Source: Scleromatobacter humisilvae
GTDB lineage: Bacteria; Pseudomonadota; Gammaproteobacteria; Burkholderiales; Burkholderiaceae_C
DNA: 64,000 nt
Reading direction: 5' to 3'
Assembly (NCBI RefSeq): GCF_023231945.1
Contig: NZ_JAJLJH010000001.1
Location: 1,674,001 to 1,738,000, forward strand
A program made the translations under genes and the position numbers. Under the pieces are notes generated by a model. That model ran no database searches. It worked only from the letters and a program-made list of their open reading frames with translations, and had not been told where the DNA came from. Below, one piece after another: positions 11,171-48,985 of this stretch (its first letter is position 1; each line of letters opens with the position of its first letter).

Positions 11171-11189
11171 AACTGACACACCGTCAGTT
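11171..11189. promoter_or_regulatory. Operator-like palindrome, copy 1 (perfect)
   Basis: AACTGACACACCGTCAGTT: perfect 7-bp arms around a 5-bp spacer. It lies in the 424-bp gene-free stretch 10901-11324, 270 bp upstream of the SDR start at 10900, and no other feature is visible in that stretch. Same architecture as the copies at 12258, 20028, 30598, 37959, 38076, 48845 and 48967, consistent with a TetR-type dimer site (inferred). Confidence 0.7.
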
Positions 11190-11324
11190 ATACATGCGTT
11201 CTGATGAGGGAATTCATTCGCGAGGGTGTCAGAGAAGCTGACAGCACCCTCTGCGGCTGCCGCCTCCGATGCGGGGGGCTTGCGTCTACCATGCCTTGCA
11301 CGGCGTTCGCACGAGCTGATCTTG

Positions 11325-11723
11325 CTACTTCGCGTCCGGCGACCAGACGACCTCCCACGGATTGCCGTCCGGGTCGGTGAAGTAGAAGGTATACAGGCCG
11401 CCGTCGCGAATGCGTGGCGCGCTCGTCACCGAACCGCCCGCCTTCATGACGTCGACGGCCGCCTGGTCAACCTGTTCGATGCTGTCCACGAACGTGACCA
11501 GCGTCATTCCTGACGCTGCAACCGTTGATCCGGGCAGCCCACACTCCTTGCTCAGGTACTCACGGTCGATCATCGCGACCAGTATTCCGCTCGCGGCGTA
11601 CTTGACCGAGTGGCCAGTCTGCGCGCCGCTGCGCGGCGTCCACCCAAGTCCTTGCTCGTAGAACCTCACGGCGTGAGCCCGGTCTCGCACCGGAAGCATG
11701 ACCATGTCCAGGCGTTGCTGCAT
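11325..11723 (-). CDS. VOC (glyoxalase/bleomycin-resistance/dioxygenase) superfamily protein
   Basis: This 132-residue protein has the paired beta-alpha-beta-beta-beta layout of one VOC module pair: MVMLPVRDRAHAVRFYEQGLGW at the start and FYFTDPDGNPWEVVW at the end, the second being the usual metal-ligand strand (Glu). VOC members include glyoxalases, epimerases and dioxygenases; the family alone does not give the substrate. ATG 11723 is chosen for the strong AGGAGGG ribosome site just upstream; the longer open frame to 11813 has no such site. It is probably co-transcribed with the small gene at 11848-12057. Confidence 0.82.
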   Translation of the reverse strand: MQQRLDMVMLPVRDRAHAVRFYEQGLGWTPRSGAQTGHSVKYAASGILVAMIDREYLSKECGLPGSTVAASGMTLVTFVDSIEQVDQAAVDVMKAGGSVTSAPRIRDGGLYTFYFTDPDGNPWEVVWSPDAK

Positions 11724-11847
11724 GACATTCCCTCCTTCGTGGTGATCCGACGAAGCCCGCGGGCAACTGCAGGCTCGGTGCCGAATATTTGACTGCCGCG
11801 CAACGTCCAGCACGGCAATCGCACTGCGGCACGGGTCGTCGACCGCC

Positions 11848-12057
11848 CTACGCTGCCTTCCGCCTCGCCACGGACGACGAAGCGTCGGCCGTCGAGGCGC
11901 TCGATGCTGGGCGCAGCATCAGGCGCTCGAGCTCATCGATTTCAGGAGCGACCTTTGCCAACGGGAAGGTCTTCACCGTCATGCCAACGAAGGTTCGAGT
12001 TTGCATCTCGCGCTCGCGTGCGCGCAGCGTTTCCAAGCAATGGCGAAGCAAGGCCAT
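11848..12057 (-). CDS. Small hypothetical protein, 69 aa
   Basis: I do not recognise this protein. ATG 12057 follows a clear GAGGAG ribosome site at about 10 nt, which is the main support for it being real; an in-frame TTG at 12258 would fall inside the operator and is rejected as a start. The product has a helical basic first half (LLRHCLETLRAREREMQTR), a middle (VKTFPLAKVAPEIDELERLML) and an Ala/Ser-rich tail. No signal peptide or membrane segment. It lies 200 bp downstream of a perfect operator-like palindrome and upstream of the VOC gene. Confidence 0.55.
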   Translation of the reverse strand: MALLRHCLETLRAREREMQTRTFVGMTVKTFPLAKVAPEIDELERLMLRPASSASTADASSSVARRKAA

Positions 12058-12257
12058 GATTTGTCTCCTCAGGAGGTCGCCAGTTTCCGATGGAGCCGCG
12101 CGGAAAGTTTGCGCCGCTGCGTCCGCATCGTCTTCACTGGGCGGCGACCGGCCCCAGAAAGCGTCTGCGACGAGGCGCACTTGTCGATCGTCCGAATCCT
12201 TTTGACATGGAGCGCTCGACGAAACATGTGCCCGATCGGTGAGCCGAGTATGCCACA

Positions 12258-12276
12258 AACTGACGCGTCGTCAGTT
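12258..12276. promoter_or_regulatory. Operator-like palindrome, copy 2 (perfect)
   Basis: AACTGACGCGTCGTCAGTT: perfect 7-bp arms with 5-bp spacer, extendable to 8 bp (flanking A and T). It sits in the gene-free stretch 12058-12391, upstream of the small-protein/VOC unit read on the minus strand. I see no other feature in this stretch. Confidence 0.72.
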
Positions 12277-13081: not shown

Positions 13082-13090
13082 GCTGACTCC

Positions 13091-19895: not shown

Positions 19896-19914
19896 AACTG
19901 ACTATCATTCAACT
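19896..19914. promoter_or_regulatory. Degenerate operator-like half-palindrome, copy 3
   Basis: AACTGACTATCATTCAACT: a perfect left arm but only a partial right arm. It lies about 100 bp upstream of the P450 start at 19797, in the 309-bp divergent promoter region 19798-20106. On its own it would not be convincing; I list it because the position fits the other copies. Confidence 0.35.
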
Positions 19915-20027
19915 ATTAGATGACACATCTTCATCTTCGACCACTGAAAAGAGACCTTGCAGACTGACTTTTACTGAGTAGAAAGACTAGCAAGGCGTCC
20001 CTACCTAGTACAAACACCATCTACTAC

Positions 20028-20046
20028 AGCTGACTATTCCTCAGTT
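20028..20046. promoter_or_regulatory. Operator-like palindrome, copy 4
   Basis: AGCTGACTATTCCTCAGTT: 7-bp arms with 5-bp spacer, two departures from AACTGAC-N5-GTCAGTT. It ends 60 bp upstream of the DUF1302 start at 20107, a good place for a repressor site controlling the plus-strand export/SDR operon. Confidence 0.55.
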
Positions 20047-20106: not shown

Positions 20107-21846
20107 ATGAAGAGGATCGCGACACAATTCGGATGCCCGCCACCGCTGAGACGCAGCGTGGTGGCCGCCGCGATGGCCGGGGCGACGTCCCTCGGCGCGC
20201 ATGCCATCGAGATCGATACGGGGTCACCCGACTGGACTGTCCGCTGGGACAATTCGATCGCGTACACCCTGGGCATCCGCACCCAAAAGATCAACGACAA
20301 CATCGGGAACAACCCGGTCTTCGCCGAGTCGGACTACAGCGTCAAGCAGGGCGGGGTCGTCACGAACCGCTTGTCCGACCTGATGGAGCTCGACGCCGAA
20401 AGCAAAGGCGGCTTCGGCGCACGCATGAGCGCGTCGCTGTTCAACGATTTCGCGTTTCGCGACCACGTACGCACCAATCCAGGCGATCTCGCGCCCGGCA
20501 CGCCCTACTCGTCGCTCGGGGCGTACACGAACAATGAGTTCTCCAGTTACACGAAGAGGTACTACAAGGACGGCGCAGGCCTGCTGGATGCCTTCGCGTT
20601 CGCCAACTTCAAGGTCGGCGACCACGATGCATCCGTCGACGTCGGACGCCTGACGAAGTACTGGGGCAACGCCACCTTCTTCGGCACGCTCGGCATCAAC
20701 TACTCGCAGAACGCGGCCGACAACATCAAGGGCGCCTCCGCACCGGGCTCGCAGGCCAAGGAACTCGCCATCCCGCGCGAGCAGCTCTATCTGTCGACAC
20801 AGATCACGCAGGATCTGGTGGTCGAAGGACAGTACTTCCTGAAGTTCAAGGGGAACCTCCTTCCAGAGGGTGGCACCTACCTGAGCTTCGCCGACTTCCT
20901 GACTCGTGGCCCGCGAGGCGCGGCCCTGACTTCCGCCTTCGGACTGGGCCAGCACGCTCCCGACATCGCGCCGAAGAACGTCGACTCGAACTACGGCCTG
21001 AAGCTGGCTTGGGCGCCTTCGGCACTGCGCGGTGCCGTTTCGGCCTACTACCGGCAACTCGATGAGACGCAGCCGTGGATGCCATTGGTTCAGTACGATC
21101 CACAGACAGGGGAAGCCGAGAACTATCACCTGGCCTACGCCAGGCACGTCAAGCTCTACGGCCTGAGTCTCGAGAAGCAGATCGACGCGTACAGCCTGGG
21201 AGCCGAGATCTCCTATCGCCGAGGCACGGCGCTCAACAGCTCGGCGGCCAATCCGAACGATGCGCTGGGTACCGAGGGTGCTCGCGGCAATGTCACGAAC
21301 GTCATCGTCAACACCGTCGGTGGGCTGACGCCGACTCCCGTGTGGGACACCGGCATCTTCCTCGCTGAAGTCGGCTACTCCCACCTCAATTCGGTGACCA
21401 GCAACGCGGCTATGTTCAACGGAACCAGCAACGCCGCGGCCTGCCCTTCGGGTTCCGTTGCCAACGGCTGCTCCACGCGCAACGCCGTGCTGTTCGCCGG
21501 ACTCTTCAAGCCTCAATGGCTCGGCGTATTTCCGAGCGTCGACCTCGGTCTGCCGCTGTTCGCAATGTACGGCGTCAAGGGGAACACCGCGAGCATGGGA
21601 GCGCCGGTCAACGAGCATGGCGTCCTGTTCACCGCCGGCATCGAGGCGCTGGTGCAACAGAAGTGGGACATCACGCTTCAATACAACGGGTACCACTCCA
21701 AGTCCAACGGCATCACCAATGGAGGCGCCGCAGCGGGCGTCGCCAATGGCACCCCGGGATTCCCGACGTTCTATGCCGGCGGGAACGGAACCTTTATGTA
21801 CAACGACAAGGGCTGGGTTTCGCTCACGGTGCAAGCCTCGTTCTGA
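20107..21846 (+). CDS. DUF1302 outer-membrane protein
   Basis: A 579-residue protein with a signal peptide (RRSVVAAAMAGATSLGAHA, cleavage before IEID) and a C-terminal phenylalanine (VQASF), as in outer-membrane beta-barrels. The sequence style (WDNSIAYTLGIRTQKIND, VDVGRLTKYWG, LKLAWAP) is that of the DUF1302 family, found in Gram-negative degraders of steroids, terpenes and other hydrophobic compounds next to DUF1329. The molecular role is not settled; a barrel for uptake or export of a lipophilic compound is inferred. ATG 20107 follows AGGAGA. First gene of a plus-strand operon with the operator-like site at 20028 upstream. Confidence 0.9.
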   Translation: MKRIATQFGCPPPLRRSVVAAAMAGATSLGAHAIEIDTGSPDWTVRWDNSIAYTLGIRTQKINDNIGNNPVFAESDYSVKQGGVVTNRLSDLMELDAESKGGFGARMSASLFNDFAFRDHVRTNPGDLAPGTPYSSLGAYTNNEFSSYTKRYYKDGAGLLDAFAFANFKVGDHDASVDVGRLTKYWGNATFFGTLGINYSQNAADNIKGASAPGSQAKELAIPREQLYLSTQITQDLVVEGQYFLKFKGNLLPEGGTYLSFADFLTRGPRGAALTSAFGLGQHAPDIAPKNVDSNYGLKLAWAPSALRGAVSAYYRQLDETQPWMPLVQYDPQTGEAENYHLAYARHVKLYGLSLEKQIDAYSLGAEISYRRGTALNSSAANPNDALGTEGARGNVTNVIVNTVGGLTPTPVWDTGIFLAEVGYSHLNSVTSNAAMFNGTSNAAACPSGSVANGCSTRNAVLFAGLFKPQWLGVFPSVDLGLPLFAMYGVKGNTASMGAPVNEHGVLFTAGIEALVQQKWDITLQYNGYHSKSNGITNGGAAAGVANGTPGFPTFYAGGNGTFMYNDKGWVSLTVQASF

Positions 21847-21863
21847 CAGATCCGGAGACAGAC

Positions 21864-23240
21864 ATGAATTCACTCAAGAACGTCATCGCCATTGCCCTGG
21901 GCGCCTTCGCACTTGCGTCCGGCGCCGATGCCGCGGTCACTGCGGACGAGGCCAGGCAACTGGGCGTCAGCCTGACGCCCTTCGGCGCCGAGAAGGCGGC
22001 CAATGCCGACGGCTCCATCCCGGCCTACAACCCCGCACCCATCGCTCCGCCTGCCGGCTACAAGGCGGGAAGCGGGCACTATCCGGACCCGTACGCGAAC
22101 GAGAAGATCGAGGTGACGATCGATGCGAAGAACCTCGCCCAGTACAAGGACCAGGTGACTGCCGGCGTTGCGGCGACGCTCCAGCAATACCCCTCGTTCC
22201 ACCTCAACGTCTACCCGACGCATCGGAACGCACCCTATCCGCAATGGGTGCTCGACAACAGCATCAAGAACGCAACCCGGGCCGAGTTGACCGGCCAGGT
22301 GACGGGCGATGCGGTGAAGGGCGCCTACGGCGGTGTTCCTTTCCCGATCCCGAAGAACGGCTACGAGGTGATGTGGAACTTCCTGCTCCGCTACATTCCG
22401 GCGGACGTCGACAACCGCCAGGCCAGCTTCCTGTCGGACGCCTCGGGCCACCAGGTCTTCCTTGGCGACTTCGACTGCCTGTTCGCCAACACGTATTACG
22501 ACCCGAAGGCCAGCAGCCTGCCCGACCCGTACTACTTCAAGCAGCTGTGCTTCGGCAAGGCGCCCGTCTCGGCCGTCGGCTACAACATCTTGCTGACGTA
22601 CTCGGCCGACTACGCCAATGCCGACCAACTGGTGTGGGTCTACACGCCAGGCCAGCGACGTGTACGCACTGCCCCGGAGTTTTCCTACGACACGCCGTCG
22701 GCGAATTTCGGCGGGGCGCTCACCTATGACGAGGTCAACATCTACTCGGGCCGCATGGATCGCTTCGACATGAAGCTCGTCGGGAAGAAGGAGATCTTCA
22801 TCCCGTACAACAACTTCGCCATGTTCACCGCAGCCTTTTCGACGGACAAGTTCATGACGCCCAAGCATCCGAACCCCGACATGATTCGTTGGGAGAAGCA
22901 TCGGGTCTGGGTGGTGGAGGCGACCTTGAAGCCGGGCAAGCGTCACGCGCTGTCGAGACGCACCTTCTACGTCGACGAGGATTCGTGGCAGATCGTGGCC
23001 ACGGACGGATACGACCAAGGCGGCAAGCTGTACCGTGTCGGCCTGGACTTCCCGTCGGTGATCTACGGGCCGGACCAGGCGTCGTACACGATCGGCCAAC
23101 GCTACGGTTTCGTGGACCTGGCCAAGGGCGAGTACTACATGTCTGCCGCCAATGAGCACTCCGTGTCGACGGCCAACGTCAAGCTGCCGGACATGGGTAC
23201 GTTCACTTCGTCGCGCCTGGCCGCCACCGGCATCCGCTGA
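21864..23240 (+). CDS. DUF1329 periplasmic protein (LolA/LolB-like fold expected)
   Basis: A 458-residue DUF1329 protein with a clear signal peptide (VIAIALGAFALASGADA, then AVTADEARQLG). Typical family segments are LTPFGAEKAANADGSIPAYN near residue 38, YPTHRNAP, VWVYTPGQRRVRTAPEFSYDTP, and EKHRVWVVEATLKPGKRH near 345. DUF1329 is expected to bind lipophilic ligands in the periplasm. It follows DUF1302 by 17 bp, with GGAGA before the ATG, and precedes the propeller and MMPL genes, a four-gene set recurrent in degraders of hydrophobic compounds. Confidence 0.9.
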   Translation: MNSLKNVIAIALGAFALASGADAAVTADEARQLGVSLTPFGAEKAANADGSIPAYNPAPIAPPAGYKAGSGHYPDPYANEKIEVTIDAKNLAQYKDQVTAGVAATLQQYPSFHLNVYPTHRNAPYPQWVLDNSIKNATRAELTGQVTGDAVKGAYGGVPFPIPKNGYEVMWNFLLRYIPADVDNRQASFLSDASGHQVFLGDFDCLFANTYYDPKASSLPDPYYFKQLCFGKAPVSAVGYNILLTYSADYANADQLVWVYTPGQRRVRTAPEFSYDTPSANFGGALTYDEVNIYSGRMDRFDMKLVGKKEIFIPYNNFAMFTAAFSTDKFMTPKHPNPDMIRWEKHRVWVVEATLKPGKRHALSRRTFYVDEDSWQIVATDGYDQGGKLYRVGLDFPSVIYGPDQASYTIGQRYGFVDLAKGEYYMSAANEHSVSTANVKLPDMGTFTSSRLAATGIR

Positions 23241-23258
23241 TGTCGATCATCTGCTGAC

Positions 23259-23287
23259 GGGGGGCGCGACGAAAGCGCGCGCTCCCC
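23259..23287. repeat. Intercistronic GC-rich hairpin
   Basis: GGGGGGCGCG (23259-23268) can pair with CGCGCTCCCC (23278-23287), a 10-bp stem with one G-U and a 9-nt loop, in the 68-bp gap between the DUF1329 and propeller genes. No U tract, so it may stabilise or attenuate the mRNA rather than terminate it. Confidence 0.4.
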
Positions 23288-23308
23288 AACGCACGCACGG
23301 GTCCAGAC

Positions 23309-24484
23309 ATGACATCCCCTCAACGCCCATCCATCGCCGGCGTTCCTGCTCTCCTGGGCTCGCGACGCAAGCGTCGCGTACCTGCTAACACCTTCACGGC
23401 AACCGCGCTCGCGCTGTTCTGCGGCCTGTGCATCGGGCTGCCGTCGAACATCGGCAAGACGGGCTACATCGATCCACTGCTCGAGGCGGCGACGCCACTC
23501 AGCGGCGCGCTGCGGCCAGATCGCGAGCCGCTGGTGGCCATAACGACGGTGGCCAACCGGACACTGGCAGTTGGACTCCGAGGCCTCGCAATTCGCTCCA
23601 ACGACAACGGCCGGAGCTGGCAGCAATCCGTCGTACCGGTCCAGACGGACCTGGTCTCCGTACAACTCTTGAACGAGCATGACGCCTGGGCGACCGGCCA
23701 TGACGGAGTGATTCTTCACAGCACCGATGGCGGATCTTCATGGCAGAAGCAGTTTGACCACGTCGCCGCCCGCGACTCGCTACAAAAGTTCTACCTCGAC
23801 AGGGTCCGCAGCGGCGAGAGCGGCATGCAGCGCTACGCCGACGAGCTGAAGCTCAACACCGAAGGCGACGTCTCGCTGCCGTTTCTTGGCGTGTGGTTCA
23901 CCGACGAAATGAACGGATTCGCCGTCGGCTCGTTCGGAATGATCGTTGCGACCCACGATGGCGGGAAGTCGTGGTTGCCCTGGCTGCACCAGATCGACAA
24001 TCCCGACTTCCTGAACCTCAACGCCGTCCGTGGCATCGGAGGCGAGGTCTACATCACAGGCGAAAAGGGGTTCGTCTACAAGCTCGATCGCGAGACCGGG
24101 CGATTCGTCTCGTCCAGCACCGGATGCCGGGGAACGCTGTTCGACATCGTGGGAACGGCGCAGTTCCTCGTCGCCTTCGGCCTGCGCGGCGCGGCCTACC
24201 GGAGCGTCGATGGCGGCGCGTCATGGACCCAGATCTCGACCGGCACCGAGGCCAGCATCACGGCCGGTGCCGTGCTGGATGACGGAAAGAGCGTCGTGCT
24301 CGTGAGCGATACAGGCCTGGCACTGCGCAGCGAGGACGAGGGATTGTCGTTCCACCGCGTCGAACTGAGCCATCGAATTCCGGTGTACGGCGCGACTGAA
24401 ACCGCCAAGGGAACACTGGCGTTGGTCGGCTACCTGGGCGTCGACACTGCCGGGCTGCGACCCGCTCAAGCGACAAATCAATAG
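23309..24484 (+). CDS. Ycf48-like/BNR beta-propeller protein
   Basis: A 391-residue protein with an N-terminal hydrophobic segment (about 28-46, TATALALFCGLCIGL) that acts as signal peptide or anchor, then repeated propeller blades with Asp-box motifs: SNDNGRSWQQS, STDGGSSWQKQ, THDGGKSWLPW, SVDGGASWTQI and SEDEGLSFHRV. This is the Ycf48/BNR-repeat pattern. The family is named after photosystem II assembly factors, but non-photosynthetic members like this one accompany MMPL permeases and DUF1302/DUF1329 genes, probably as periplasmic partners. It ends 11 bp before the permease. Confidence 0.88.
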   Translation: MTSPQRPSIAGVPALLGSRRKRRVPANTFTATALALFCGLCIGLPSNIGKTGYIDPLLEAATPLSGALRPDREPLVAITTVANRTLAVGLRGLAIRSNDNGRSWQQSVVPVQTDLVSVQLLNEHDAWATGHDGVILHSTDGGSSWQKQFDHVAARDSLQKFYLDRVRSGESGMQRYADELKLNTEGDVSLPFLGVWFTDEMNGFAVGSFGMIVATHDGGKSWLPWLHQIDNPDFLNLNAVRGIGGEVYITGEKGFVYKLDRETGRFVSSSTGCRGTLFDIVGTAQFLVAFGLRGAAYRSVDGGASWTQISTGTEASITAGAVLDDGKSVVLVSDTGLALRSEDEGLSFHRVELSHRIPVYGATETAKGTLALVGYLGVDTAGLRPAQATNQ

Positions 24485-24495
24485 GACTCCGCCAG

Positions 24496-26937: not shown

Positions 26938-26970
26938 GCTCTCGACAACGCTGAATACCGGAGACCCGTC

Positions 26971-27717: not shown

Positions 27718-27768
27718 AGACAACAGGTTTCAGAGTCACCCAATTTGCATTGACTGGAGATCGATCCC

Positions 27769-28518: not shown

Positions 28519-28522
28519 CGCC

Positions 28523-29317: not shown

Positions 29318-29334
29318 GTATTGAGGAGCATCAC

Positions 29335-30597: not shown

Positions 30598-30616
30598 AAC
30601 TGATAGAGTGTCAGTT
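30598..30616. promoter_or_regulatory. Operator-like palindrome, copy 5
   Basis: AACTGATAGAGTGTCAGTT, extendable by one base on each side (T...A), with one departure from the consensus. It lies in the 141-bp divergent region between the thioesterase (start 30520) and the crotonase (start 30662) and could control both. Confidence 0.68.
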
Positions 30617-32923: not shown

Positions 32924-32939
32924 GATGATCTCCTTTAGC

Positions 32940-32955
32940 AACCAACCGGTTGGTT
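32940..32955. promoter_or_regulatory. TetR-type operator, perfect 16-bp palindrome
   Basis: AACCAACCGGTTGGTT, a perfect palindrome 16 bp upstream of the aldehyde dehydrogenase start codon. A second near-copy lies 48 bp further. This sequence type (AACCAACCGGTTGGTT) is typical of TetR-family autoregulated divergent promoters. Confidence 0.85.
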
Positions 32956-32987
32956 TACTAATTGTGATTCCCTGAGGTACACTTGTC

Positions 32988-33003
32988 AACCAACCAGTTG
33001 GTT
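32988..33003. promoter_or_regulatory. Second TetR-type operator copy
   Basis: AACCAACCAGTTGGTT, identical to the copy at 32940 except at one central base, located 19 bp before the TetR start codon. Centre-to-centre distance to the first copy is 48 bp, so the two sites lie on slightly different helical faces. Confidence 0.83.
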
Positions 33004-33022
33004 TTATTTTTCGAGTTCAAAG

Positions 33023-33571
33023 ATGAGAGACGCAGAAGCTACCCGTCGTCGACTGCTCGAGGCAGGCGCTGCCGAGTTCGCCCAGTACGGGATCGCAGGA
33101 GCGCGGGTCGACCGCATTGCAGACGCAGCTGGCTGCAACAAGCAGTCGATCTATGCACACTTCGGCAGCAAGGACGGGCTGTTCGACGCCGTGTTCGATG
33201 CGATGGTGACGCAGGTCGTCTCGAACGTCCCCTTCGATCCCAGCGATCTGCCGACGTACGCGTCTCAGACCTTTGACTGGTCGCAGGCCCATCCCGAAAT
33301 GCTTCGACTGACAACATGGCAGCAACTCGAGCGAGGCGGCATCAGCGAGATGGTGGGTTTCGCGGCGGAAGTCAACACAGAGAAGACAGAAAGGCTTCGT
33401 CGCGCTCAGGAGGCCGGCAAAGTCACGCGGGCGATACCGGCCAAGCACCTCCTCACACTCATCTACCAGCTCGCCACCGTTCAGCTCGATCGCACGCGGA
33501 TGAACCCTGGTGAAGCCGCATCGATCAGGAGCGCACTGGTCGAGGCGGTTCGTCGGCTGGTGGCGCCCTGA
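33023..33571 (+). CDS. TetR-family repressor controlling the divergent aldehyde dehydrogenase
   Basis: A 182-residue TetR protein with the N-terminal helix-turn-helix (residues about 8-52: RRRLLEAGAAEFAQYGIAGARVDRIADAAGCNKQSIYAHFGSKDGLF, given here only for location). The C-terminal ligand domain (about 60-180) is short. ATG 33023 is close to the operator at 32988-33003, implying autorepression. The ligand is probably the aldehyde or its precursor (inference from the neighbour). Confidence 0.9.
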   Translation: MRDAEATRRRLLEAGAAEFAQYGIAGARVDRIADAAGCNKQSIYAHFGSKDGLFDAVFDAMVTQVVSNVPFDPSDLPTYASQTFDWSQAHPEMLRLTTWQQLERGGISEMVGFAAEVNTEKTERLRRAQEAGKVTRAIPAKHLLTLIYQLATVQLDRTRMNPGEAASIRSALVEAVRRLVAP

Positions 33572-37958: not shown

Positions 37959-37977
37959 AACTCACTAGCTGTCAGTT
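37959..37977. promoter_or_regulatory. Operator-like palindrome, copy 6
   Basis: AACTCACTAGCTGTCAGTT: one departure from AACTGAC-N5-GTCAGTT. Lies 93 bp upstream of the aldehyde dehydrogenase start, in the AT-rich 370-bp divergent region 37867-38236 which holds no gene. Confidence 0.65.
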
Positions 37978-38075: not shown

Positions 38076-38094
38076 AACTGATCCTCTTTCAGTT
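38076..38094. promoter_or_regulatory. Operator-like palindrome, copy 7
   Basis: AACTGATCCTCTTTCAGTT: AACTGA and TCAGTT arms are perfect, spacer as in the other copies. It lies 142 bp upstream of the DUF35 gene start at 38237. Two separate copies in one divergent region suggest one per direction of transcription. Confidence 0.65.
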
Positions 38095-38236
38095 TTTATG
38101 GCTTTGATGTAGCCTGACGACAAGCACTACCCAGACGCGACCACCCAATGAATTGCCATCTCTCGACCAGGAACCAGGCGTCGCGCGAAGCATCGCGGGC
38201 TCGGTCCAGCGACGGTCCCGATGCAAGGAGTGCGCC

Positions 38237-38704
38237 GTGAAGTCGCAAGGAGCCGCCTCACCTTGCTCGAGCGCGGACGCGTTCCCGCGCAACCACCTTC
38301 CAGCACTGACGCCTGAGAACACCTTCTTCTGGCAAAGCGGCAAGGAAGGCCGTCTTGCATTCATGCGCTGTCCCGCATGCAGCTTCTATGTACACCCACC
38401 CCTGCCGATCTGCCCTCGGTGCCAGTCACGCGACGTGACACCACAGATCGTCAGCGGAGATGCCACGGTCGTCAGCGTCACGATCAACCGACAAGCCTGG
38501 GAAAAGGGTCTCGAGCGCCCCTACGTGATCGCCATCGTCGAACTCGCGGAGCAATCCGGCCTGCGGCTCACGACCAACGTGATCAATTGCCCGATCGAGG
38601 CGGTGCACATTGGAATGAAGGTGCGCGTTCTCTTCGACCAGCGCGAGGACGTCTGGCTCCCCTTGTTCGAGCCCGCGCCACCTCGCTTCGGTACCTCCGC
38701 ATGA
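38237..38704 (+). CDS. DUF35 Zn-ribbon/OB-fold protein, partner of Ltp2-type aldolase
   Basis: A 155-residue protein with a rubredoxin-like zinc ribbon (MRCPACSFYV...PICPRCQSR, four Cys near residues 45-63) followed by an OB fold (VVSVTINRQAW, RPYVIAIVELAEQSGLRLTTNVI). DUF35 proteins bind CoA thioesters and form complexes with thiolase-fold proteins; in steroid side-chain degradation DUF35 domains partner Ltp2 aldolases. The Ltp2-like gene at 41545 in the same operon is the likely partner. GTG 38237 lies 6 nt after AAGGAG. Confidence 0.85.
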   Translation: MKSQGAASPCSSADAFPRNHLPALTPENTFFWQSGKEGRLAFMRCPACSFYVHPPLPICPRCQSRDVTPQIVSGDATVVSVTINRQAWEKGLERPYVIAIVELAEQSGLRLTTNVINCPIEAVHIGMKVRVLFDQREDVWLPLFEPAPPRFGTSA

Positions 38705-38807
38705 TTGCCGAGATCGCCAGTGTGGGAGTCAACGACAACTCGATGAGGCTTGCGTGCGGACAATCGTCGTCGCGCATTTCTCGCGACAGCGCTGAGGTGA
38801 AGCCAGC

Positions 38808-40073
38808 ATGACATCCCCAGACCAGCAGCAGCTCATCCTGATCGTGGGGGCCGGCCAGGCCGGCGCAGAGCTCGCGTTCGCCTTGAGACAAACCGGATCG
38901 ACCGCGCGGATCGTGATCGTCGGCGACGAGCCGTTCGCACCGTACCAGCGGCCACCCTTGTCCAAGTCGTACCTGGCAGGCAAGGTCGACCTCGCCGCGT
39001 TGTACGTCAAGCCGAAGGAGGCCTACGACACTGCCAACATCGAGCTTCGTACCGCAGTCAGGGCCGAACACGTGGATCGCAGTGCCAAGGTCGTCAGGCT
39101 CTCGGACGGTTCGACAATGCTCTACGACAAGCTGGTGTTCGCCACGGGAGGCCGCCCGAGGCCGCTGCAGGCGAAGGGTGTCCAGGACGCCCCAAGGCTA
39201 GGCAACCTGCACTATCTGCGCACGGTCGGCGATGTCGATAGGATCCACAGGCAGTTCCAGCCCGGCTTCCGCATGGTGCTGATCGGCGGAGGCTACGTGG
39301 GCCTGGAAGTCGCTGCGGCTGCGCGTGAGCACGGCATGCATGTCACGGTGCTCGAGGCCATGCCGCGCGTGTTGGCGCGCGTGACTGTCCCGGAGATCTC
39401 GGCCTTTTACGAGCGCGTGCACCGCGAGGCCGGCGTCGAAATCCGCACGAGCGCTGTCGTGTCGTCCATCGTGACCGACGAATCGGGCGATGCGGTGACC
39501 GCAATTGTTTGCAGCGATGGTTCGACGACGCCGGCTGACGTGGTAGTCGTGGGCATCGGCCTGCTGCCCAACACCGAGTTGGCCGAACGATCGGGACTCG
39601 AAGTCAAGGACGGCATCGTCGTCGACGAGTTGACACGCACCGCCGATCCGGATGTCCTGGCGATCGGCGATTGCACGCGACACCCGAACGTCATGTACGG
39701 GCGCCACGTGCGGCTGGAGTCGGTGCCCAACGCACTCGAGCAGGCGCGCACCGCTGCAGCTACCCTGTGCGGGCAGCACCGCCCGCACCATGCGGTGCCC
39801 TGGTTCTGGTCGGATCAATTCGATCTCAAGCTTCAGATGGTGGGCCTCGCCGACGGCCACGACCGCCTTGTCCTTCGGGGCTCGACGTCGACCCGATCGT
39901 TCTCGGCCTTCTACATGAAGGAAGGTCGCGTGATCGCCGCGGATGCAGTCAATCGCCCTCAGGACTTCATGATCGCCAAGCGCCTGGTTGCCCAGCAGTC
40001 CATGGTGGATCCTTCGCGACTAGCCGATGAATCCCAGCCGCTGAAGACGCTTGCGAGCGCGCCGCCGGTCTGA
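38808..40073 (+). CDS. FAD-dependent ferredoxin reductase (P450 electron supply)
   Basis: A 421-residue pyridine-nucleotide-disulphide-type reductase: VGAGQAGAELAFAL (FAD site), PYQRPPLSKSYL, VLIGGGYVGLEVAA (NADH site), and AIGDCTRHPN; the C-terminal YMKEGRVIAADAVNRPQDFMIAKRLV is typical of putidaredoxin/rhodocoxin-reductase types. It passes electrons from NAD(P)H to a ferredoxin for P450s. Two ferredoxin genes follow directly. ATG 38808 after GAGGTGA. Confidence 0.92.
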   Translation: MTSPDQQQLILIVGAGQAGAELAFALRQTGSTARIVIVGDEPFAPYQRPPLSKSYLAGKVDLAALYVKPKEAYDTANIELRTAVRAEHVDRSAKVVRLSDGSTMLYDKLVFATGGRPRPLQAKGVQDAPRLGNLHYLRTVGDVDRIHRQFQPGFRMVLIGGGYVGLEVAAAAREHGMHVTVLEAMPRVLARVTVPEISAFYERVHREAGVEIRTSAVVSSIVTDESGDAVTAIVCSDGSTTPADVVVVGIGLLPNTELAERSGLEVKDGIVVDELTRTADPDVLAIGDCTRHPNVMYGRHVRLESVPNALEQARTAAATLCGQHRPHHAVPWFWSDQFDLKLQMVGLADGHDRLVLRGSTSTRSFSAFYMKEGRVIAADAVNRPQDFMIAKRLVAQQSMVDPSRLADESQPLKTLASAPPV

Positions 40074-40100
40074 CACCGCACTTCTTTGCCCCCTCTTCCC

Positions 40101-40421
40101 ATGCCAAAAATCACCTTCATCGAACACAACGGCAAGCAGCACGACGTCCACGAACAGGTCGGGCGCAGTCTCATGCAGGCCGCGGTCGACCATCTCGTTC
40201 CGGGGATCGTGGCGGACTGTGGCGGCAGCTGCAGCTGTGCCACGTGCCACGGGTACGTCGACACCGCCTGGGTCGATCGTGTCCCACCCGCAGACCTGGG
40301 CGAACAGTCGATGCTCGAATGCGTCATCGATGGCGCCGTCAACAGTCGCCTGACCTGCCAGATCAAGATCACGCCGGCGATGGATGGACTGATTGTTCGG
40401 CTTCCCAAGACGCAATTCTGA
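40101..40421 (+). CDS. [2Fe-2S] ferredoxin of adrenodoxin/putidaredoxin type
   Basis: A 106-residue ferredoxin: MPKITFIEHNGKQHDV at the start and ADCGGSCSCATCHGYV (C-x5-C-x2-C) with the fourth ligand in RLTCQI, the vertebrate/ISC-type [2Fe-2S] layout. Directly follows its reductase (27 bp). A probable electron donor for one or more of the three P450s. Cytosolic. Confidence 0.93.
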   Translation: MPKITFIEHNGKQHDVHEQVGRSLMQAAVDHLVPGIVADCGGSCSCATCHGYVDTAWVDRVPPADLGEQSMLECVIDGAVNSRLTCQIKITPAMDGLIVRLPKTQF

Positions 40422-40434
40422 GGAGCACACATCC

Positions 40435-40680
40435 ATGAAAGTCCTTGCCGACAAGGGAAAGTGCTGCGGTCATGCGCGCTGCAACGCGGTCGCGCCCGAC
40501 ATCTTCACGCTGGACGACAACGGCTACATCGCCGTCGCTGAGATCATCGTTCCGGCCGAGATGGAGGGGCAGGCTCGCCGCGGGGTGCGCGCGTGCCCAG
40601 AGCGAGTACTCGCGCTTGACGACGATGGCATGGCGGCCACTCACGGGCAAGCCTCTGCGCCGTCGCCCGGGAATCGATGA
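40435..40680 (+). CDS. P450-type 3Fe-4S/4Fe-4S ferredoxin with CxxHxxC motif
   Basis: An 81-residue ferredoxin: KCCGHARC near residues 9-16 gives C10-x2-H13-x2-C16, and ACPERVL supplies the distal Cys-Pro. Replacement of the middle ligand by His is known in actinobacterial P450 ferredoxins, where it tunes the cluster. Having this type next to a [2Fe-2S] ferredoxin and one reductase suggests that different P450s use different donors. ATG 40435 follows GAGGAG. Confidence 0.88.
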   Translation: MKVLADKGKCCGHARCNAVAPDIFTLDDNGYIAVAEIIVPAEMEGQARRGVRACPERVLALDDDGMAATHGQASAPSPGNR

Positions 40681-40725
40681 ACACAGGCGCAGTCCAGCGA
40701 GCCCCTTGTTGTTCCTACCCATCCC

Positions 40726-41454
40726 ATGAAGCATCAAGATCCATCGCCCGCCCGCCCGCGTGAGAACCTGTATGGCCAGAAGATGGGCCGCAAAGGCGCC
40801 GAGACCCGCGCACGACTGATGAAGGCTACGACGAACCTTCTCGAGAAGCGGTCTATCCGGGACCTCAGCGTCTCGGAGATCGCAGCCGTGGCCGGGACAT
40901 CGTCCTCCGCGTTCTATGTCTACTTCGACGACGTCAACGAGATCGCCCTGGCCATCGCGGAGTCCGTCCAGCAGATCACGCCCGAGATCGAGGCCTTGCT
41001 CACCCAGCACTGGTCGCACTCCGACGCGAAGGCCAAGGCAACTGCGCTGATCAAGGCCTACGCGGCGTTCTGGCATGAGCATCACGCCATCCTGCGCGTG
41101 CGCAACCTGGCAGCGGACGAGGGCGAGAAGCGATTCGAGGATGTTCGACACGCTTCCGTTTCGCGCATTCACGAACTGCTGTGCAAGCGCATCGCCGCCG
41201 CCGACAACGGCCTCGACCCCGCCTCTGGCGCTTCGGCGGTGCTCGTCGTCGTGGAACGTGTGGCGACGATCGCGCGCCTGCCTCTACGCACCCGCCGATC
41301 GTCGCGCGCTCAGTTGATCCAGTCGGCCGCGTTCATGGTGGCCCATTCACTGACGCCGCCCGAGGGCGCGCCAGTCGCCGTCGAGGTGCCCCCGCCAGCC
41401 CAGCCGAGGCGCATCAAGAGCGACGGGGCGGCCAGCGCATCGTCGACGTCATGA
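40726..41454 (+). CDS. TetR-family regulator, candidate master repressor of the cluster
   Basis: A 242-residue TetR protein: N-terminal helix-turn-helix (residues about 22-70, with LSVSEIAAVAGTSSSAFYVYFDDVNEIAL) and a C-terminal ligand domain. A Pro/Ala-rich tail follows (about 215-242). It lies inside the operon that has operator-like copies 6 and 7 upstream, so if it is their regulator it would be autoregulated. The assignment as the regulon repressor is an inference from position; the other TetR in the window has its own distinct palindromes. Confidence 0.88.
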   Translation: MKHQDPSPARPRENLYGQKMGRKGAETRARLMKATTNLLEKRSIRDLSVSEIAAVAGTSSSAFYVYFDDVNEIALAIAESVQQITPEIEALLTQHWSHSDAKAKATALIKAYAAFWHEHHAILRVRNLAADEGEKRFEDVRHASVSRIHELLCKRIAAADNGLDPASGASAVLVVVERVATIARLPLRTRRSSRAQLIQSAAFMVAHSLTPPEGAPVAVEVPPPAQPRRIKSDGAASASSTS

Positions 41455-41544
41455 GGGCGAGCCCGGATTCACCCCTGTGTCGAAACGGCGGCTTCGAGAA
41501 CCAAGCCATAGACAAGCAGACCCCAGCCATTCAAGGCCAAGTGC

Positions 41545-42738
41545 ATGCAGATTCTTGAAAGACAGGCAGCGATCACCGGCATCGGCATGTCCGGCCCATC
41601 GCGACGAGCGGATCGCTCGCCCTTGCAGCTGACGCTCGATGCCACCCTGGAGGCCCTGGCCGACGCCGGCTTGAAGCGCGAGGACATCGACGGCCTGAGC
41701 TCGTGGCCCGGCATGTCGACGACACCCGGCATGGCCCCGGTGCCGCTGCGGGAGATCAAGGAATCGCTCGGGCTCAAGCTGAACTGGTCGGCTGCCGCAG
41801 CGGAGGCGCCCGGGCAACTCGGCGCCATCCTGAACGCCGCAATGGCTGTGGCATCGGGACAGGCACGTCATGTTCTGTGCTTTCGCAGCCTCAGCCAGTA
41901 CACCGAGCAGGTCAAGAGCCGGGGCAAGGCACCGTCCGACGGAGCTCTCGGCAAGGCAGCGCGCGTCGACGGCCTGATGAGCTGGATTCGTCCCTTCAAT
42001 GGCCTGTCCGCAGCGCACCCCATCGCCCTGGTTGCCGCACGCCACATGCACGAGTACGGCACGACGCGCGAGCAAATGGGTGCCATCGCGCTCAACGGCC
42101 GCCGTAACGCAATGCTCAACCCGCGGGCGCTCTACCGTGAGCCGCTCACGATGGCCGACTACCTGTCGGCGCGCATGGTAAGCGACCCGCTTTGCCTGTA
42201 CGACTGCGACGCTCCCATCGACGGCGCAACCGCGATCATCGTGTCTCACATCGACGCCGCCAGGGACCTGCGCAAGCCTCCGCTCCGCATCGAGGCCATG
42301 AGCGGCGCACTGCACGGCCGCAGCAGTTGGGATCAATTCGACGACCTGACAAGCATGGCCGCCCGGGACGCGGGTCGACATCTCTGGGAACGCACGGACC
42401 TGAAACCCACTGACGTCGACGTGGCGAACCTGTATGACGGCTTCAGCGTGCTGACGATGATCTGGCTGGAGGCACTCGGCTTCTGCAAGAAGGGCGAGAG
42501 CGGCGCGTTCGTCGAAGGCGGCCGCAGGATTGCGCTGGAGGGCGAACTACCGCTCAACACCGGTGGTGGCCAGCTCTCGGCGGGTCGGCTGCATGGGTTT
42601 GGCCTGCTCTGGGAGTCGTGCACTCAGCTCTGGGGCGAAGGTGGCGACCGGCAAGTTGCCGGCGCGCCGCGTGTCGCGCTGACCGCCGCGGGCGGCGGCC
42701 CACTTGCGGGCTGCCTGCTTCTCACGCGCGACACCTGA
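41545..42738 (+). CDS. Ltp2-like thiolase-fold aldolase lacking the catalytic Cys
   Basis: A 397-residue thiolase-fold protein of the SCP-x/lipid-transfer group. The nucleophile Cys of thiolases is absent: its loop reads AAAAEAPGQLGA instead of NACATG. HDCF is replaced by LYDGFS and GHPLGATG by GGGQLSAGRLHG. These changes are those of Ltp2-type retro-aldolases, which cleave a beta-hydroxy-acyl-CoA with a tertiary alcohol in sterol side-chain degradation and need a DUF35 partner. The DUF35 protein at 38237 is in the same operon. Retro-aldol cleavage here is inferred from these motifs. Confidence 0.86.
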   Translation: MQILERQAAITGIGMSGPSRRADRSPLQLTLDATLEALADAGLKREDIDGLSSWPGMSTTPGMAPVPLREIKESLGLKLNWSAAAAEAPGQLGAILNAAMAVASGQARHVLCFRSLSQYTEQVKSRGKAPSDGALGKAARVDGLMSWIRPFNGLSAAHPIALVAARHMHEYGTTREQMGAIALNGRRNAMLNPRALYREPLTMADYLSARMVSDPLCLYDCDAPIDGATAIIVSHIDAARDLRKPPLRIEAMSGALHGRSSWDQFDDLTSMAARDAGRHLWERTDLKPTDVDVANLYDGFSVLTMIWLEALGFCKKGESGAFVEGGRRIALEGELPLNTGGGQLSAGRLHGFGLLWESCTQLWGEGGDRQVAGAPRVALTAAGGGPLAGCLLLTRDT

Positions 42739-42796: not shown

Positions 42797-44080
42797 TCAG
42801 CGCCCAGCGCGCGCGCGGGCCAGGTCCGCCGCGGCCTGCATCATGCGGGCACCGCGCCGCGCATCCGCCTGCGGCGCCTGCGGCAGGACAACGGGGCCGT
42901 GCTCGCGGCTGGGCAGCATGACGACGGCTGTGCCAGGCACCGTGATGTCGCCGCGCTGGTTGGTGCCAGCCAGGCGCAGCTCCACGACCGGCCGGCCTTC
43001 CTCGAGACGCTTGTCGACCACCTCGCCTGAACAGATCGTCGCATCGCCCATGAAGTTGAAGGCACGGGACTGGCAGCCGAGCCTCCACAACCAAGCGTCG
43101 TCACCCATCCAGTTCGTCACGAGGTGCACCAGCCAGCTGGTGCGCATCTGCCCGTAGTCGTAGGAGGTCGGCAGGCCGAGTTCCTGGGCTCGATCGTGAT
43201 CCCAGTGCACGCGCTGGACGACGTCCGGCACGCCGAAGCGGTCGGGCGTGAAGAACGCGGGCATGCGCTGGCGCTGGCGCCAGTTGTAGCGCAAGGGCCC
43301 GATGCCGCTGCTCGACAGCCCTAACCCCATGTGCATGGAGATGACGTCGACCATTGTCAGCGGACCCTTCGCGACAGGCGTGAGGAGGTCGCCGATCGAA
43401 ACGTCCTCCCACCAGCGCGGTTCGGACGCGCGGCGCTGCTCTGCGGCGTACACCTCGTCGATGCGAGCGATGTCATCGGGCGTGTAGGTCTGCCGCCGGA
43501 TGTCCGCGTAGCGTCCAGTCTTCTTGCTGCCTTCGCGCTCGGCACTCAAGTACGCCTCCTCGCGGCGTCCCACCGGAAGGCCCGCCCGGTCGACCCACAG
43601 GTCACTGTAGATCTCGGTCACCGAAACGCCGCCGCTGAACGAGGATTTCTCGTTGACCTTCACTTCGGAGGTGAAGCGCTCGACGAACAGCTCCAGATCC
43701 GGATAGATGGGCTGCCACCACGTCCATTCGACACCCGTGTAGTACTTGCCCACGCCGCGGAACAGGCCCTTGAACAGCGCCTTGCTGTCGGCGTCGGGCT
43801 TGGGCGTGAGATTGGTCCCCGTCGCATGCAGGAACTGCGGAAAGGCGATCTGGTCGCGCCAGCGCGTCTTCGCGCCATAAGCGCGGTCGTGCCAGAGCGG
43901 ATTGTCGTCGCCGCACGCCCACGCGAAATGAGCCAGCGCGTCCGTTCCGGTGCGAGCGTTGTAGGGCTTGTTGTACGCGAACTTGGGCACGCCAATTTGC
44001 TGGCGGGCCCGCGCGATGTCCTCCGGCGTGATGCGGCCTTCGGTGCTTTCTGCTTCGATACTCGTCTCTTCCGCTGTCAT
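42797..44080 (-). CDS. FAS1-like dehydratase / MaoC-type hydratase, 427 aa
   Basis: A large hot-dog protein with an N-terminal FAS1-like dehydratase domain (about 15-200: AYNKPYNARTGTDALAHFAWACGDDNPLW) and a second hot-dog/MaoC-like domain (about 220-400: WEDVSIGDLLTPVAKGPLTMVDV). The two-domain fusion resembles ChsH-like enoyl-CoA hydratases that act on steroid side chains with tertiary double bonds; that role is inferred from the Ltp2/DUF35 neighbour. ATG 44080 is behind GGAGA; ATG 44104 (4-bp overlap with the crotonase stop) is also possible. Confidence 0.8.
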   Translation of the reverse strand: MTAEETSIEAESTEGRITPEDIARARQQIGVPKFAYNKPYNARTGTDALAHFAWACGDDNPLWHDRAYGAKTRWRDQIAFPQFLHATGTNLTPKPDADSKALFKGLFRGVGKYYTGVEWTWWQPIYPDLELFVERFTSEVKVNEKSSFSGGVSVTEIYSDLWVDRAGLPVGRREEAYLSAEREGSKKTGRYADIRRQTYTPDDIARIDEVYAAEQRRASEPRWWEDVSIGDLLTPVAKGPLTMVDVISMHMGLGLSSSGIGPLRYNWRQRQRMPAFFTPDRFGVPDVVQRVHWDHDRAQELGLPTSYDYGQMRTSWLVHLVTNWMGDDAWLWRLGCQSRAFNFMGDATICSGEVVDKRLEEGRPVVELRLAGTNQRGDITVPGTAVVMLPSREHGPVVLPQAPQADARRGARMMQAAADLARARAGR

Positions 44081-46453: not shown

Positions 46454-46472
46454 GATGAGCTCGCCGTTGGCT

Positions 46473-47261: not shown

Positions 47262-47280
47262 CTCCTCTCGGATGTGCGGT

Positions 47281-48810
47281 TCAGACACCGAGCAACGCCT
47301 TCAGGTCGGGGCGGCTGACCTTCATCGAGGCCGTCCTGGGCAACGCAGGGAGCATGACGAAGCGCGTCGGGATCATGTAAGCCGCCAGGTGCTTGCGCAT
47401 GAAGACCTCGAGCGCGGCGGCATCCGGCGCCTGCACGTCGGACTTCATCTCGATCGCCGCCACCGGTACCTGTCCGAGCCGCGCATCGGGTGCCCCCACG
47501 ACGGCTGCATCGGCGACGCCCGGATAGCGTCGCAACACGGCCGCGACTTCGTCGGGCAGGATCTTGAAGCCGCCGCGGTTGATCGCGTCATCCGCCCGGC
47601 CATGCAGGAACAGGAAGCCGTCGGCATCGATCAGCGCCAGGTCGTTGGTGCGAATCCAATCGGGGCCGAACCGGTCGCACTTGATGTGGAGGATCCCGAT
47701 CTGTCCCGATTCGAGCGGCTCGCCGGACTCCTGCGACACGACGCGCAAGAAGACGTCGGCACGCGGCCGCCCTACGCTCTGGCGCTTCGTCTTCGAGAAC
47801 GCCTGGTGATCAGCGAGTGTCCAGCCGGCGATGCCGCCGATGAACTCCGCCGCGCCGTAGTCGACCAGGATCGGCACGCCGTAGCGCTCCTCGAACTCGA
47901 CCTGCATCTGCGGGTCGAGGGGCGCCGTGCCCGAGCGGATTGCTCGCAGCGATTTCAGCCATTCGGGCTCGACATTCGCATCCATGATCATGCGGATCAT
48001 CGCGGGCACCAGGCTCGCCGACTTGGGACGGTAGCGCCGCACCGCGTCGGCCCAGTCCTCCGCCACGAACTTCTCGAACAAGACGATCGGCCGCGCCTGG
48101 TACAGCGCGAGCATCAAGCCGAAAAGTCCGCCCGCATGGCTGAAGGGCTTGAATAGCAGGGCCGGCGACGTCTTGAGCGCGAGCGCATCTTCGACGTCAC
48201 GCTCGCCCTTGCGCTGCTCGCCCGAACGAAGTGAAGGCACCAGCACGTTCTCGAGCACCGGGATGCGCTTCGGCGCGCCGGTGGTGCCGCTCGTGAGGCG
48301 CTCCAGCACGTAGCCCGGCATCGGTGCACGGTGCGGGGGCGACCCGACCTTGTCGAGTCCTTCGACCGGCGCGACGGTCAGCGAAGTCTCGCCGGTCACG
48401 ACGAAGCCGGCGCTGCCGGCTTCGCGGGCCGCCGCCACCGCGCCCGGCACTCGCCAATCGTCCGCATCCGCGATCACGGCCTGCAGCCGCTGAGCGCGCA
48501 GTTCATCGCAGAACGTCTCCGGAGCCAGGTTCGGCCTGAGCGGGACGACCATGCGACCGTGCCGCACCAGCGAAGAGAAAGCCGCAACCGAGGCGACCCG
48601 ATTGCGCGCGACCCATCCGATCGGGGCATCACCCTCAACGCCCGCAGCGACGAGTGCACGATCGATCTCGTCACCGGCCGAGGCGAGCTGGCCCCAACTG
48701 GCGCGACCGGTGCGCGATTCGACCGCCAGCGCTTCCGGCATCAACGCGAATACGGCGTCGAGTCGATCGCGAAGACTGCTGGAACTCTCTGGCATGGACT
48801 TGGCCGACAC
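47281..48810 (-). CDS. AMP-dependent acyl-CoA synthetase/ligase
   Basis: A 509-residue ANL-family enzyme: LTSGTTGAPKRIP (A3 P-loop-type motif, near residue 175), VDYGAAEF (A5), TNDLALIDADGF (A7/A8 with the AMP ribose Asp) and GGFKILPDEVAAVL with the hinge. C-terminal Lys in RTASMKVSRPDL. It activates a carboxylic acid to its CoA thioester. GTG 48810 follows GAGG; ATG 48795 is the alternative. First gene of the minus-strand operon; two operator-like palindromes lie just upstream. Confidence 0.9.
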   Translation of the reverse strand: MSAKSMPESSSSLRDRLDAVFALMPEALAVESRTGRASWGQLASAGDEIDRALVAAGVEGDAPIGWVARNRVASVAAFSSLVRHGRMVVPLRPNLAPETFCDELRAQRLQAVIADADDWRVPGAVAAAREAGSAGFVVTGETSLTVAPVEGLDKVGSPPHRAPMPGYVLERLTSGTTGAPKRIPVLENVLVPSLRSGEQRKGERDVEDALALKTSPALLFKPFSHAGGLFGLMLALYQARPIVLFEKFVAEDWADAVRRYRPKSASLVPAMIRMIMDANVEPEWLKSLRAIRSGTAPLDPQMQVEFEERYGVPILVDYGAAEFIGGIAGWTLADHQAFSKTKRQSVGRPRADVFLRVVSQESGEPLESGQIGILHIKCDRFGPDWIRTNDLALIDADGFLFLHGRADDAINRGGFKILPDEVAAVLRRYPGVADAAVVGAPDARLGQVPVAAIEMKSDVQAPDAAALEVFMRKHLAAYMIPTRFVMLPALPRTASMKVSRPDLKALLGV

Positions 48811-48844
48811 ACGAACCTCGAAGCAGTGGTTGACGCCAAATCAT

Positions 48845-48863
48845 AACTTACACATCATCAGTT
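48845..48863. promoter_or_regulatory. Operator-like palindrome, copy 8
   Basis: AACTTACACATCATCAGTT: two departures from the consensus; 35 bp upstream of the ligase start codon at 48810, so it would overlap or follow the promoter, suitable for repression. Confidence 0.6.
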
Positions 48864-48966
48864 TTCAACCGATCAACCATGCGGGCACAGGTGCGAGCTC
48901 CATCAATTCTTTTGCTAGTAGAAACCCGCTGAAATGATCATTGGATGTCAACTAAGCTACCATATA

Positions 48967-48985
48967 AACTGACATGTTTTCAGTT
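48967..48985. promoter_or_regulatory. Operator-like palindrome, copy 9
   Basis: AACTGACATGTTTTCAGTT, with flanking A and T extending the symmetry; one departure from consensus. It ends 28 bp before the dehydrogenase start at 49013. With copy 8 it gives one site per direction in this 202-bp divergent region. Confidence 0.7.

Follow-up and report, generated by a model that had tools for sequence, protein, structure and literature searches.

A 19-bp palindrome, AACTGAC-N5-GTCAGTT, recurs in the promoter regions of a catabolic gene cluster of Scleromatobacter humisilvae (Burkholderiales), and raises the question of whether these promoters are governed together and, if so, by which protein. The DNA analyzed, referred to here as the window, is a stretch of 64,000 nucleotides (C1:1674001-1738000) from a genome of 6.27 Mb in 28 contigs; positions in this genome that are given without a contig are in window numbering. 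The 16S gene of the genome shares 95.0% identity with a copy on a plasmid record of Mitsuaria sp. 7 and at most 91.9% with the other 14 listed of at least 527 matching records, all of them named as Burkholderiales, which points to a betaproteobacterium of that order. The evidence described below indicates that the palindrome is very probably the operator of a TetR_C_38 repressor, encoded by two paralogous genes (TetR-B and TetR-C), which would shut approximately 16 promoters and be released by a metabolite.

Distribution of the palindrome in the genome

Nine copies of the palindrome had been reported in a preliminary description of this DNA, all of them in non-coding sequence, and both their coordinates and their mismatch counts were confirmed: two copies are perfect, three have one change, three have two, and one has three (Table 1). 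Independent gene calls placed 9/9 between genes, and, in keeping with the description, which had noticed no in-gene copy with both arms, no copy with up to three mismatches lies inside a gene in the window. Dinucleotide shuffles of the window contained on average 1.36 matches with at most three mismatches and never more than four, so that the nine observed were reached in 0 of 100 shuffles. The cluster continues rightward past the window, where more sites are found at 66102, 67400 (perfect), 70616, 70719, and 76230. In the window and its flanks together (123 kb, of which 14% is non-coding), 12/12 places with at most two mismatches were intergenic, as were 15 of the 16 places with at most three.

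Throughout the genome, all seven places with at most one mismatch fall within C1:1685171-1750248, a segment of 65 kb that amounts to approximately 1% of the genome, as do 12 of the 14 places with at most two. At up to three mismatches, 74 places were found versus 57 for a backwards control pattern, and the three-mismatch places outside of the cluster are therefore close to background. The two outside places with two mismatches, at C2:784889 and C4:355374, score 5.2 and 5.3 on a 40-site 23-bp matrix (described below), and the 16 cluster sites score at least 16.3 on a similarly built 23-bp matrix from fewer sites (27, from other genera); the genome-wide confinement is thus one of mismatch counts together with the matrix scores of these two outside places. 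Equal frequency of the motif inside genes or in unrelated promoters, which the preliminary description had named as the observation that would speak against a regulon, was not seen: the motif was not enriched within genes, and at up to two mismatches no good site was found beyond the cluster.

Two three-mismatch candidates, one inside a gene (65277) and one at 79565, were rejected as operators, since neither ranked among the 40 best hits of an independent matrix. On another contig, two- and three-mismatch copies (CGCTGACGACCAGCCAGTT and variants) are repeated over approximately 10 kb (C2:775345-784889), in what looks like a repeat-rich gene, and add to the genome-wide background.

The extended palindrome

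A logo was prepared from the places with at most three mismatches in this genome, in G312 (a genome of another genus in the same family), and in Massilia. Removal of five in-gene three-mismatch places (one from this genome, three from G312, and one from Massilia) from the 47 found left 42 sites, which were read on both strands and gave the extended 23-bp consensus AWAACTGAY-RRWYY-RTCAGTTWT. Positions outside of the pattern used for selection are conserved, with A at -2 in 71%, A/T at -1 in 83%, and A/T at the center in 84% of the sites.

A 23-bp matrix made from 27 G312 and Massilia sites, themselves picked by the 19-bp pattern and again exclusive of the in-gene three-mismatch places (the other-genera matrix), found 16 top hits in S. 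humisilvae with scores from 33.3 to 16.3, all of them intergenic and all in the cluster; the next hit scored 12.2. All nine window sites scored at least 22.3, the degenerate copy at 19896 included, and two weaker sites were gained, at 76299 (18.1) and at 19918 (Table 1). In the reverse test, a matrix from S. humisilvae sites gave top hits that were intergenic in 11 of 12 cases in G312 and in all 16 in Massilia. The G312 exception, at 95122 (one mismatch), lies 46 bp within a called gene, the start of which may have been called too early; a Massilia place at 63970 (two mismatches) is also inside a called gene, and both were tallied as in-gene. A further matrix of 40 sites from the three genomes, from which 79565 and the Massilia place at 63970 were also dropped, was used for scoring the outside places and for the scans of homologous stretches, transporter-module clusters, and upstream regions described below.

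That the palindromes are merely a structural element, such as a repetitive extragenic palindromic (REP)-like repeat or a terminator, or a product of chance and base composition, is so improbable as to be negligible. Such elements would also be intergenic and symmetric, as these are, but here the 5-bp center varies while the arms and flanks hold, every intergenic site of this genome faces at least one gene start, the palindromes are confined to one cluster, and neither shuffles nor permuted matrices reproduce them.

Candidate regulators encoded in the cluster

Three TetR genes were found in the cluster, in which the domain scan covered part of the proteins. TetR-B and TetR-C both match PF00440 (TetR_N) and PF19352 (TetR_C_38) above cut-off, are 66-67% identical, and have a recognition helix, TSSSAFYVYFDDV, in common; TetR-B has a longer C-terminal tail. 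TetR-A is related to these two proteins only in the helix-turn-helix (HTH). Among the three, TetR-B alone had reciprocal best hits in both G312 and Massilia, and the operator accompanies that protein in several genera. These findings strongly support the original proposal of a TetR-type regulon and amend it in two respects: two paralogues, instead of a single repressor, probably act as the regulator, and the one signal proposed for all of the genes did not find support in the analysis.

A different regulator, either TetR-A or one encoded elsewhere, might bind the palindrome and leave TetR-B and TetR-C as mere members of the regulon, in line with the presence of TetR-B within a regulated operon. 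TetR-A is also encoded centrally in the cluster, there is a weak match between its HTH and KstR2 (2.3e-5, among 85 TetR chains), and a Massilia stretch matches the HTH part of TetR-A (46% over 63 aa), but none of the listed operators adjoins that Massilia match. TetR-A was rejected as the binder because no operator precedes it and a search at 1e-15 gave no hit to it among the G312 or Massilia proteins. Since, in addition, loci fetched by homology to TetR-B and TetR-C bear the operator in two bacterial classes, and six transporter-module loci that have no B/C relative lack it, a different binder is improbable. TetR-A and a divergent aldehyde dehydrogenase gene, which are not separated by an operator, form an island (31490-33571) in the cluster that is perhaps under TetR-A's own control.

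Co-occurrence of the palindrome and the TetR_C_38 protein in other genomes

The loci of relatives were fetched by protein homology to TetR-B and TetR-C, with no use of the motif. G312 was the only other holder of the TetR protein at 1e-25 among 150 genomes of the family, and again among 399, and 98 kb around its TetR gene contain 11 places with at most two mismatches, a level at which seven of eight control palindromes gave 0 and the eighth gave 5. Likewise, the Massilia putida plasmid NZ_CP019037, which carries two TetR copies, has 11 distinct places with at most two mismatches in 110 kb (0 for 7/8 control palindromes and 1 for the eighth). Stretches that had not contributed to the matrix also had matches of at least 15: four each in Azospirillum sp. 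B510 and a Sphingomonadaceae metagenome-assembled genome (L011), three in N. resinovorum, two each in S. paeninsulae and S. turrisvirgatae, and one each in N. aquimarinum and genome G1484. Permuted matrices gave means of 0.01 to 0.27 on these stretches, and 0 to 8 of 200 such matrices equaled the observed count. Furthermore, a match of at least 15 (scores 16.0 to 33.1) lies within 450 bp upstream of seven of 26 TetR genes, namely TetR-C, the G312 gene, both Massilia copies, and those of S. paeninsulae, S. turrisvirgatae, and N. resinovorum.

Within the sample of 150 family genomes, for which the TetR search and the motif count requested the same draw and had identical genus tallies, seven and six places with at most one mismatch were counted in the two TetR holders and 0 to 3 in each of the remaining 148; the count was 0 in a genome of the same genus that lacks the TetR protein. 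Six clusters with a DUF1302/DUF1329/YCF48/MMPL module and no B/C relative in the stretch were also scanned, and because none of the six reached 15 (best 14.5), the operator goes with the TetR protein and not with the transporter genes. No place with up to three mismatches was present at loci L013 and L015-L018, which contain weak and mostly actinobacterial homologues, or at L014.

Promoter overlap and proposed mechanism

A -10-like hexamer (at most two mismatches to TATAAT on the better strand) begins on the last base of the palindrome at 12/15 sites of this genome, the rejected 79565 being among the misses. With the three genomes pooled, this offset has a hexamer in 18/42 cases, and each of the others that were tested has one in 0 to 10. 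Because of this placement, the operator would fill the spacer between -35 and -10; at 67400 and 19896, both reading on the minus strand, the left arm could itself act as the -35.

In the mechanism proposed from these positions, a TetR_C_38 dimer would bind the two AAACTGAY half-sites of the 23-bp palindrome over core promoters and block polymerase at approximately 16 promoters of one catabolic cluster. TetR-B and TetR-C would be under their own control through the operators that precede their own gene or operon. Release of the repressor by a pathway metabolite, most likely a coenzyme A (CoA)-ester or lipid-like acid, would switch on approximately 60 genes together. Relief of repression by a pathway CoA-ester is likely since the operators overlap core promoters. 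The guess as to ligand class comes from the AlphaFold model of TetR-B (10 helices; predicted local distance difference test score 85.5), for which the top PDB fold match is EthR and which also has FasR, FadR, and DesT as fold neighbors, some of them crystallized with acyl-CoA.

TetR proteins are mostly repressors. Activation by the TetR protein, or a switch between activation and repression, would accommodate the sites from which the next gene start is 100 to 440 bp away. At most sites of this genome, however, the palindrome and a plausible -35 and/or -10 share bases, so that a dimer bound there would obstruct polymerase, and a role in activation is accordingly improbable.

Several observations weigh against the proposal that a TetR_C_38 repressor acts at this operator. 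Holders of the motif do not form one clade in a tree of 22 homologues. No match of at least 15 was found in 14/24 stretches with a TetR homologue, and 19/26 TetR genes, those for TetR-B and the Azospirillum protein among them, lack a match directly upstream (best 8.5). In a second family of the same phylum, in which 59/299 genomes encode a TetR_C_38 protein at 1e-25, 30 loci (3.6 kb each) of such homologues contain no place with at most two mismatches; most of these homologues were taken as a more distant subgroup. Finally, the overlap with the -10 is weak in G312 (3/12) and Massilia (3/15), and the first T of the -10-like hexamer belongs to the operator itself. Because matches are lacking in these stretches, upstream regions, and short loci, the operator accompanies only part of the TetR_C_38 family.

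A palindrome of another kind, CCAGTTT-TGT-AAACTGG, is common to seven loci (L041, L052, L054, L056, L057, L058, and L061), at which it lies approximately 55-265 bp before a distant TetR_C_38 match. Its half-site, AAACTG, is that of the present operator, but in everted order. The listing of upstream palindromes in the second family was unreliable for minus-strand TetR matches, and the motif counts were unaffected by this, as whole loci were scanned.

Two candidate repressors for one operator

TetR-B and TetR-C pair with each other in the tree of 22 homologues (93/78), and the two Massilia copies pair with each other (100/100), so that the duplications in this genome and in Massilia look separate. 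One paralogue alone might repress at this operator, with the other having a different task or serving as a mixed-dimer partner only. Operators stand directly before the gene in the case of TetR-C and not TetR-B, and the longer tail of TetR-B is consistent with such a division, but the recognition helix is identical in the two proteins. Massilia, moreover, keeps a pair of its own, which suggests a benefit from having two copies; a single active paralogue is therefore possible but the less likely arrangement. A more speculative idea, which we consider somewhat unlikely, is that two sister repressors, separately duplicated in at least two lineages, read one operator across Beta- and Alphaproteobacteria and answer to different intermediates. 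Such a two-input switch, if real, would open a cluster of approximately 60 genes only in the right metabolic state by means of one DNA code.

Predicted regulated genes and the probable pathway

Eight operons and more than 35 genes had been attributed to the palindromes. The nine window sites instead face ten transcription units, since 30598 serves two, and the gene number is larger than proposed, with approximately 60 genes in 16 predicted units, 49 of them within the window. Genes on one strand were joined into a unit when the gaps between them did not exceed 200 bp; the raw sum of 71 counts one 11-gene run twice and omits an open reading frame (ORF) of 68 aa. The nine window sites account for ten of the units, with 40 genes, and 66102 for nine further genes of the window. 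At three divergent promoters of the window, each direction has an operator of its own (19896/20028, 37959/38076, and 48845/48967).

Table 1. Palindromes, TetR genes, and the operon entering from the right (window numbering; score, 23-bp other-genera matrix)
Feature	Position	Strand	Changes	Genes or context	Score
Operator, perfect	11171..11189		0	before SDR pair 10900-9208 (-)	30.0
Operator, perfect	12258..12276		0	before 68-aa ORF and glyoxalase-fold gene 11325-11723 (-)	27.2
Operator, degenerate	19896..19914		3	before P450 operon 19746-12392 (-)	22.5
Weaker second copy	19918			beside 19896	16.3
Operator	20028..20046		2	before DUF1302/DUF1329/YCF48-like/MMPL operon 20107-29574 (+)	22.3
Operator	30598..30616		1	between divergent thioesterase 30520-29624 (-) and enoyl-CoA hydratase 30662-31459 (+)	31.9
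Operator	37959..37977		1	before aldehyde dehydrogenase/two P450 operon 37911-33614 (-)	26.5
Operator	38076..38094		2	before ChsH2-like OB-fold/ferredoxin reductase/ferredoxins/TetR-B/thiolase operon 38153-42738 (+)	23.6
Operator	48845..48863		2	before acyl-CoA ligase operon 48741-42797 (-)	30.1
Operator	48967..48985		1	before acyl-CoA dehydrogenase operon 49013-54795 (+)	29.0
TetR-A, TetR_C_21	33023..33571	+		no operator in front; not predicted regulator	
TetR-B, TetR_N + TetR_C_38, 242 aa	40726..41454	+		predicted regulator; in operon behind 38076	
TetR-C, TetR_C_38	70993-71640			just outside the window; behind 70616/70719 operators	
Nine genes of predicted 11-gene side-chain-type beta-oxidation operon	54897..63202	-		operator 66102 outside the window	

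Several of these genes keep their operator in the related clusters. The DUF1302/DUF1329/YCF48/MMPL operon lies behind an operator in this genome, G312, and Massilia, and in the latter two the TetR gene is its divergent neighbor. The thioesterase (29624-30520) and an amidohydrolase (64738-66030) each find a reciprocal best hit in G312, and an operator immediately precedes the gene in both genomes. An SDR gene (54897-55787) that is the last of the 66102 operon in this genome comes immediately after an operator in G312. For the OB-fold gene at 38153, the reciprocal best hit in Massilia also follows an operator, but no operator is near the G312 counterpart (79912-80352).

The cluster contains a side-chain-type set of genes, with an SCP2-type thiolase, paired acyl-CoA dehydrogenases, MaoC, ChsH2-like OB-fold proteins, and a CYP125-like P450, and from its sequence looks like a cluster for sterol side-chain breakdown. 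In the PDB, the closest relative of the thiolase is an SCP2-thiolase, that of the P450 is CYP125MRCA, and that of the acyl-CoA dehydrogenase is 4x28_D, which we take to be a steroid enzyme. The OB-fold protein was assigned to OB_ChsH2_C by Pfam, but ChsH2 ranks fourth among its five solved relatives, the closest of which are other thiolase partners. A search for KshA (3-ketosteroid 9-alpha-hydroxylase) gave no PF19298 (KshA_C) match in this genome at E values up to 0.001, and steroid-ring opening may be absent from it. G312 has PF19298 matches, one of them in its cluster, a Rieske/KshA_C oxygenase (L023:14282-15304; G312 C90) within the gene run behind the perfect operator of that genome. Because of this enzyme and its position, G312 probably opens steroid rings, and a steroid is the likely substrate there.

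The ORF of 68 aa (12057-11848, minus strand; ATG at 12057) was missed by the gene caller; it has a good ribosome site and stands behind the perfect operator at 12258. A protein of 427 aa (42797-44080), encoded by the last gene of the 48845 operon, has no Pfam match at 1e-4 and is tied to the pathway by the operator before its operon. To the left of the cluster (933-8925) lie a gene for a ParA-like ATPase with a TTG start and an ORF of approximately 1,700 aa that has no NCBIfam match at 1e-10 and a codon score that is low for its length. The TetR protein is absent from the three genomes of the same genus that were examined, and the cluster may have been acquired horizontally.

The operator marks genes of unknown function as members of the pathway, and a regulator, an operator, and a list of genes are predicted together for related proteobacterial clusters, which permits a direct bench test. 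Furthermore, such a repressor, with its operator defined, could serve as a component of a sensor for sterol-like compounds.

Comparison with known systems

The preliminary description knew of no described operator with this sequence, and the literature search was in agreement. No published operator of this sequence was present among the matches listed, which consisted of titles and the starts of abstracts, with subscription literature mostly outside their scope; in two publications examined among those that matched the operator letters, these belong to oligonucleotides. A full-text search for TetR_C_38/PF19352, or for DUF1302 and DUF1329 together with steroid, found no literature.

Among solved structures, the top relative of TetR-C is EthR of Mycobacterium tuberculosis, mainly through the HTH half (approximately 3e-6), and EthR is also the nearest fold to the TetR-B model; identity is 17-20%, and the target genes are different. 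The EthR operator is longer and is occupied by several dimers. Bacillus FadR, FasR, and DesT are lipid- or acyl-CoA-sensing TetR proteins that control lipid genes; they resemble the TetR-B model in fold, but with 14-18% identity in the fold alignments. TetR-C matched 36 solved chains at E values up to 0.01, and neither KstR nor KstR2 was one of them.

In mycobacteria and rhodococci, KstR2 recognizes a 14-bp palindrome, AnCAAGnnCTTGnT, one site of which adjoins kstR2 itself, and has a proposed regulon of 15 genes, according to the account consulted (PMC3068626). KstR and KstR2 are, like the proteins described here, TetR repressors with palindromes in divergent promoters of a steroid cluster, but the KstR2 operator, the one compared, differs from AACTGAC-N5-GTCAGTT (PMC3068626). 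EdcR, which controls estradiol degradation in Caenibius tardaugens, is a TetR protein that represses a steroid cluster in a proteobacterium, and its palindromic operator lies over the -10 box (PMC8700777). As far as the excerpted text goes, it differs both in its operator, TnnCnnTACnAnTnGTAnnGnnA, and in its domain, TetR_C_11 (PF16859) in place of PF19352 (PMC8700777). The palindromes proposed for the bsd I TetR protein of C. tardaugens, in the portion of the report consulted, likewise differ from the present operator (PMC12882949). Set beside these systems, the TetR_C_38 proteins and the palindrome make up a predicted regulator-operator pair that is new but of a familiar kind.

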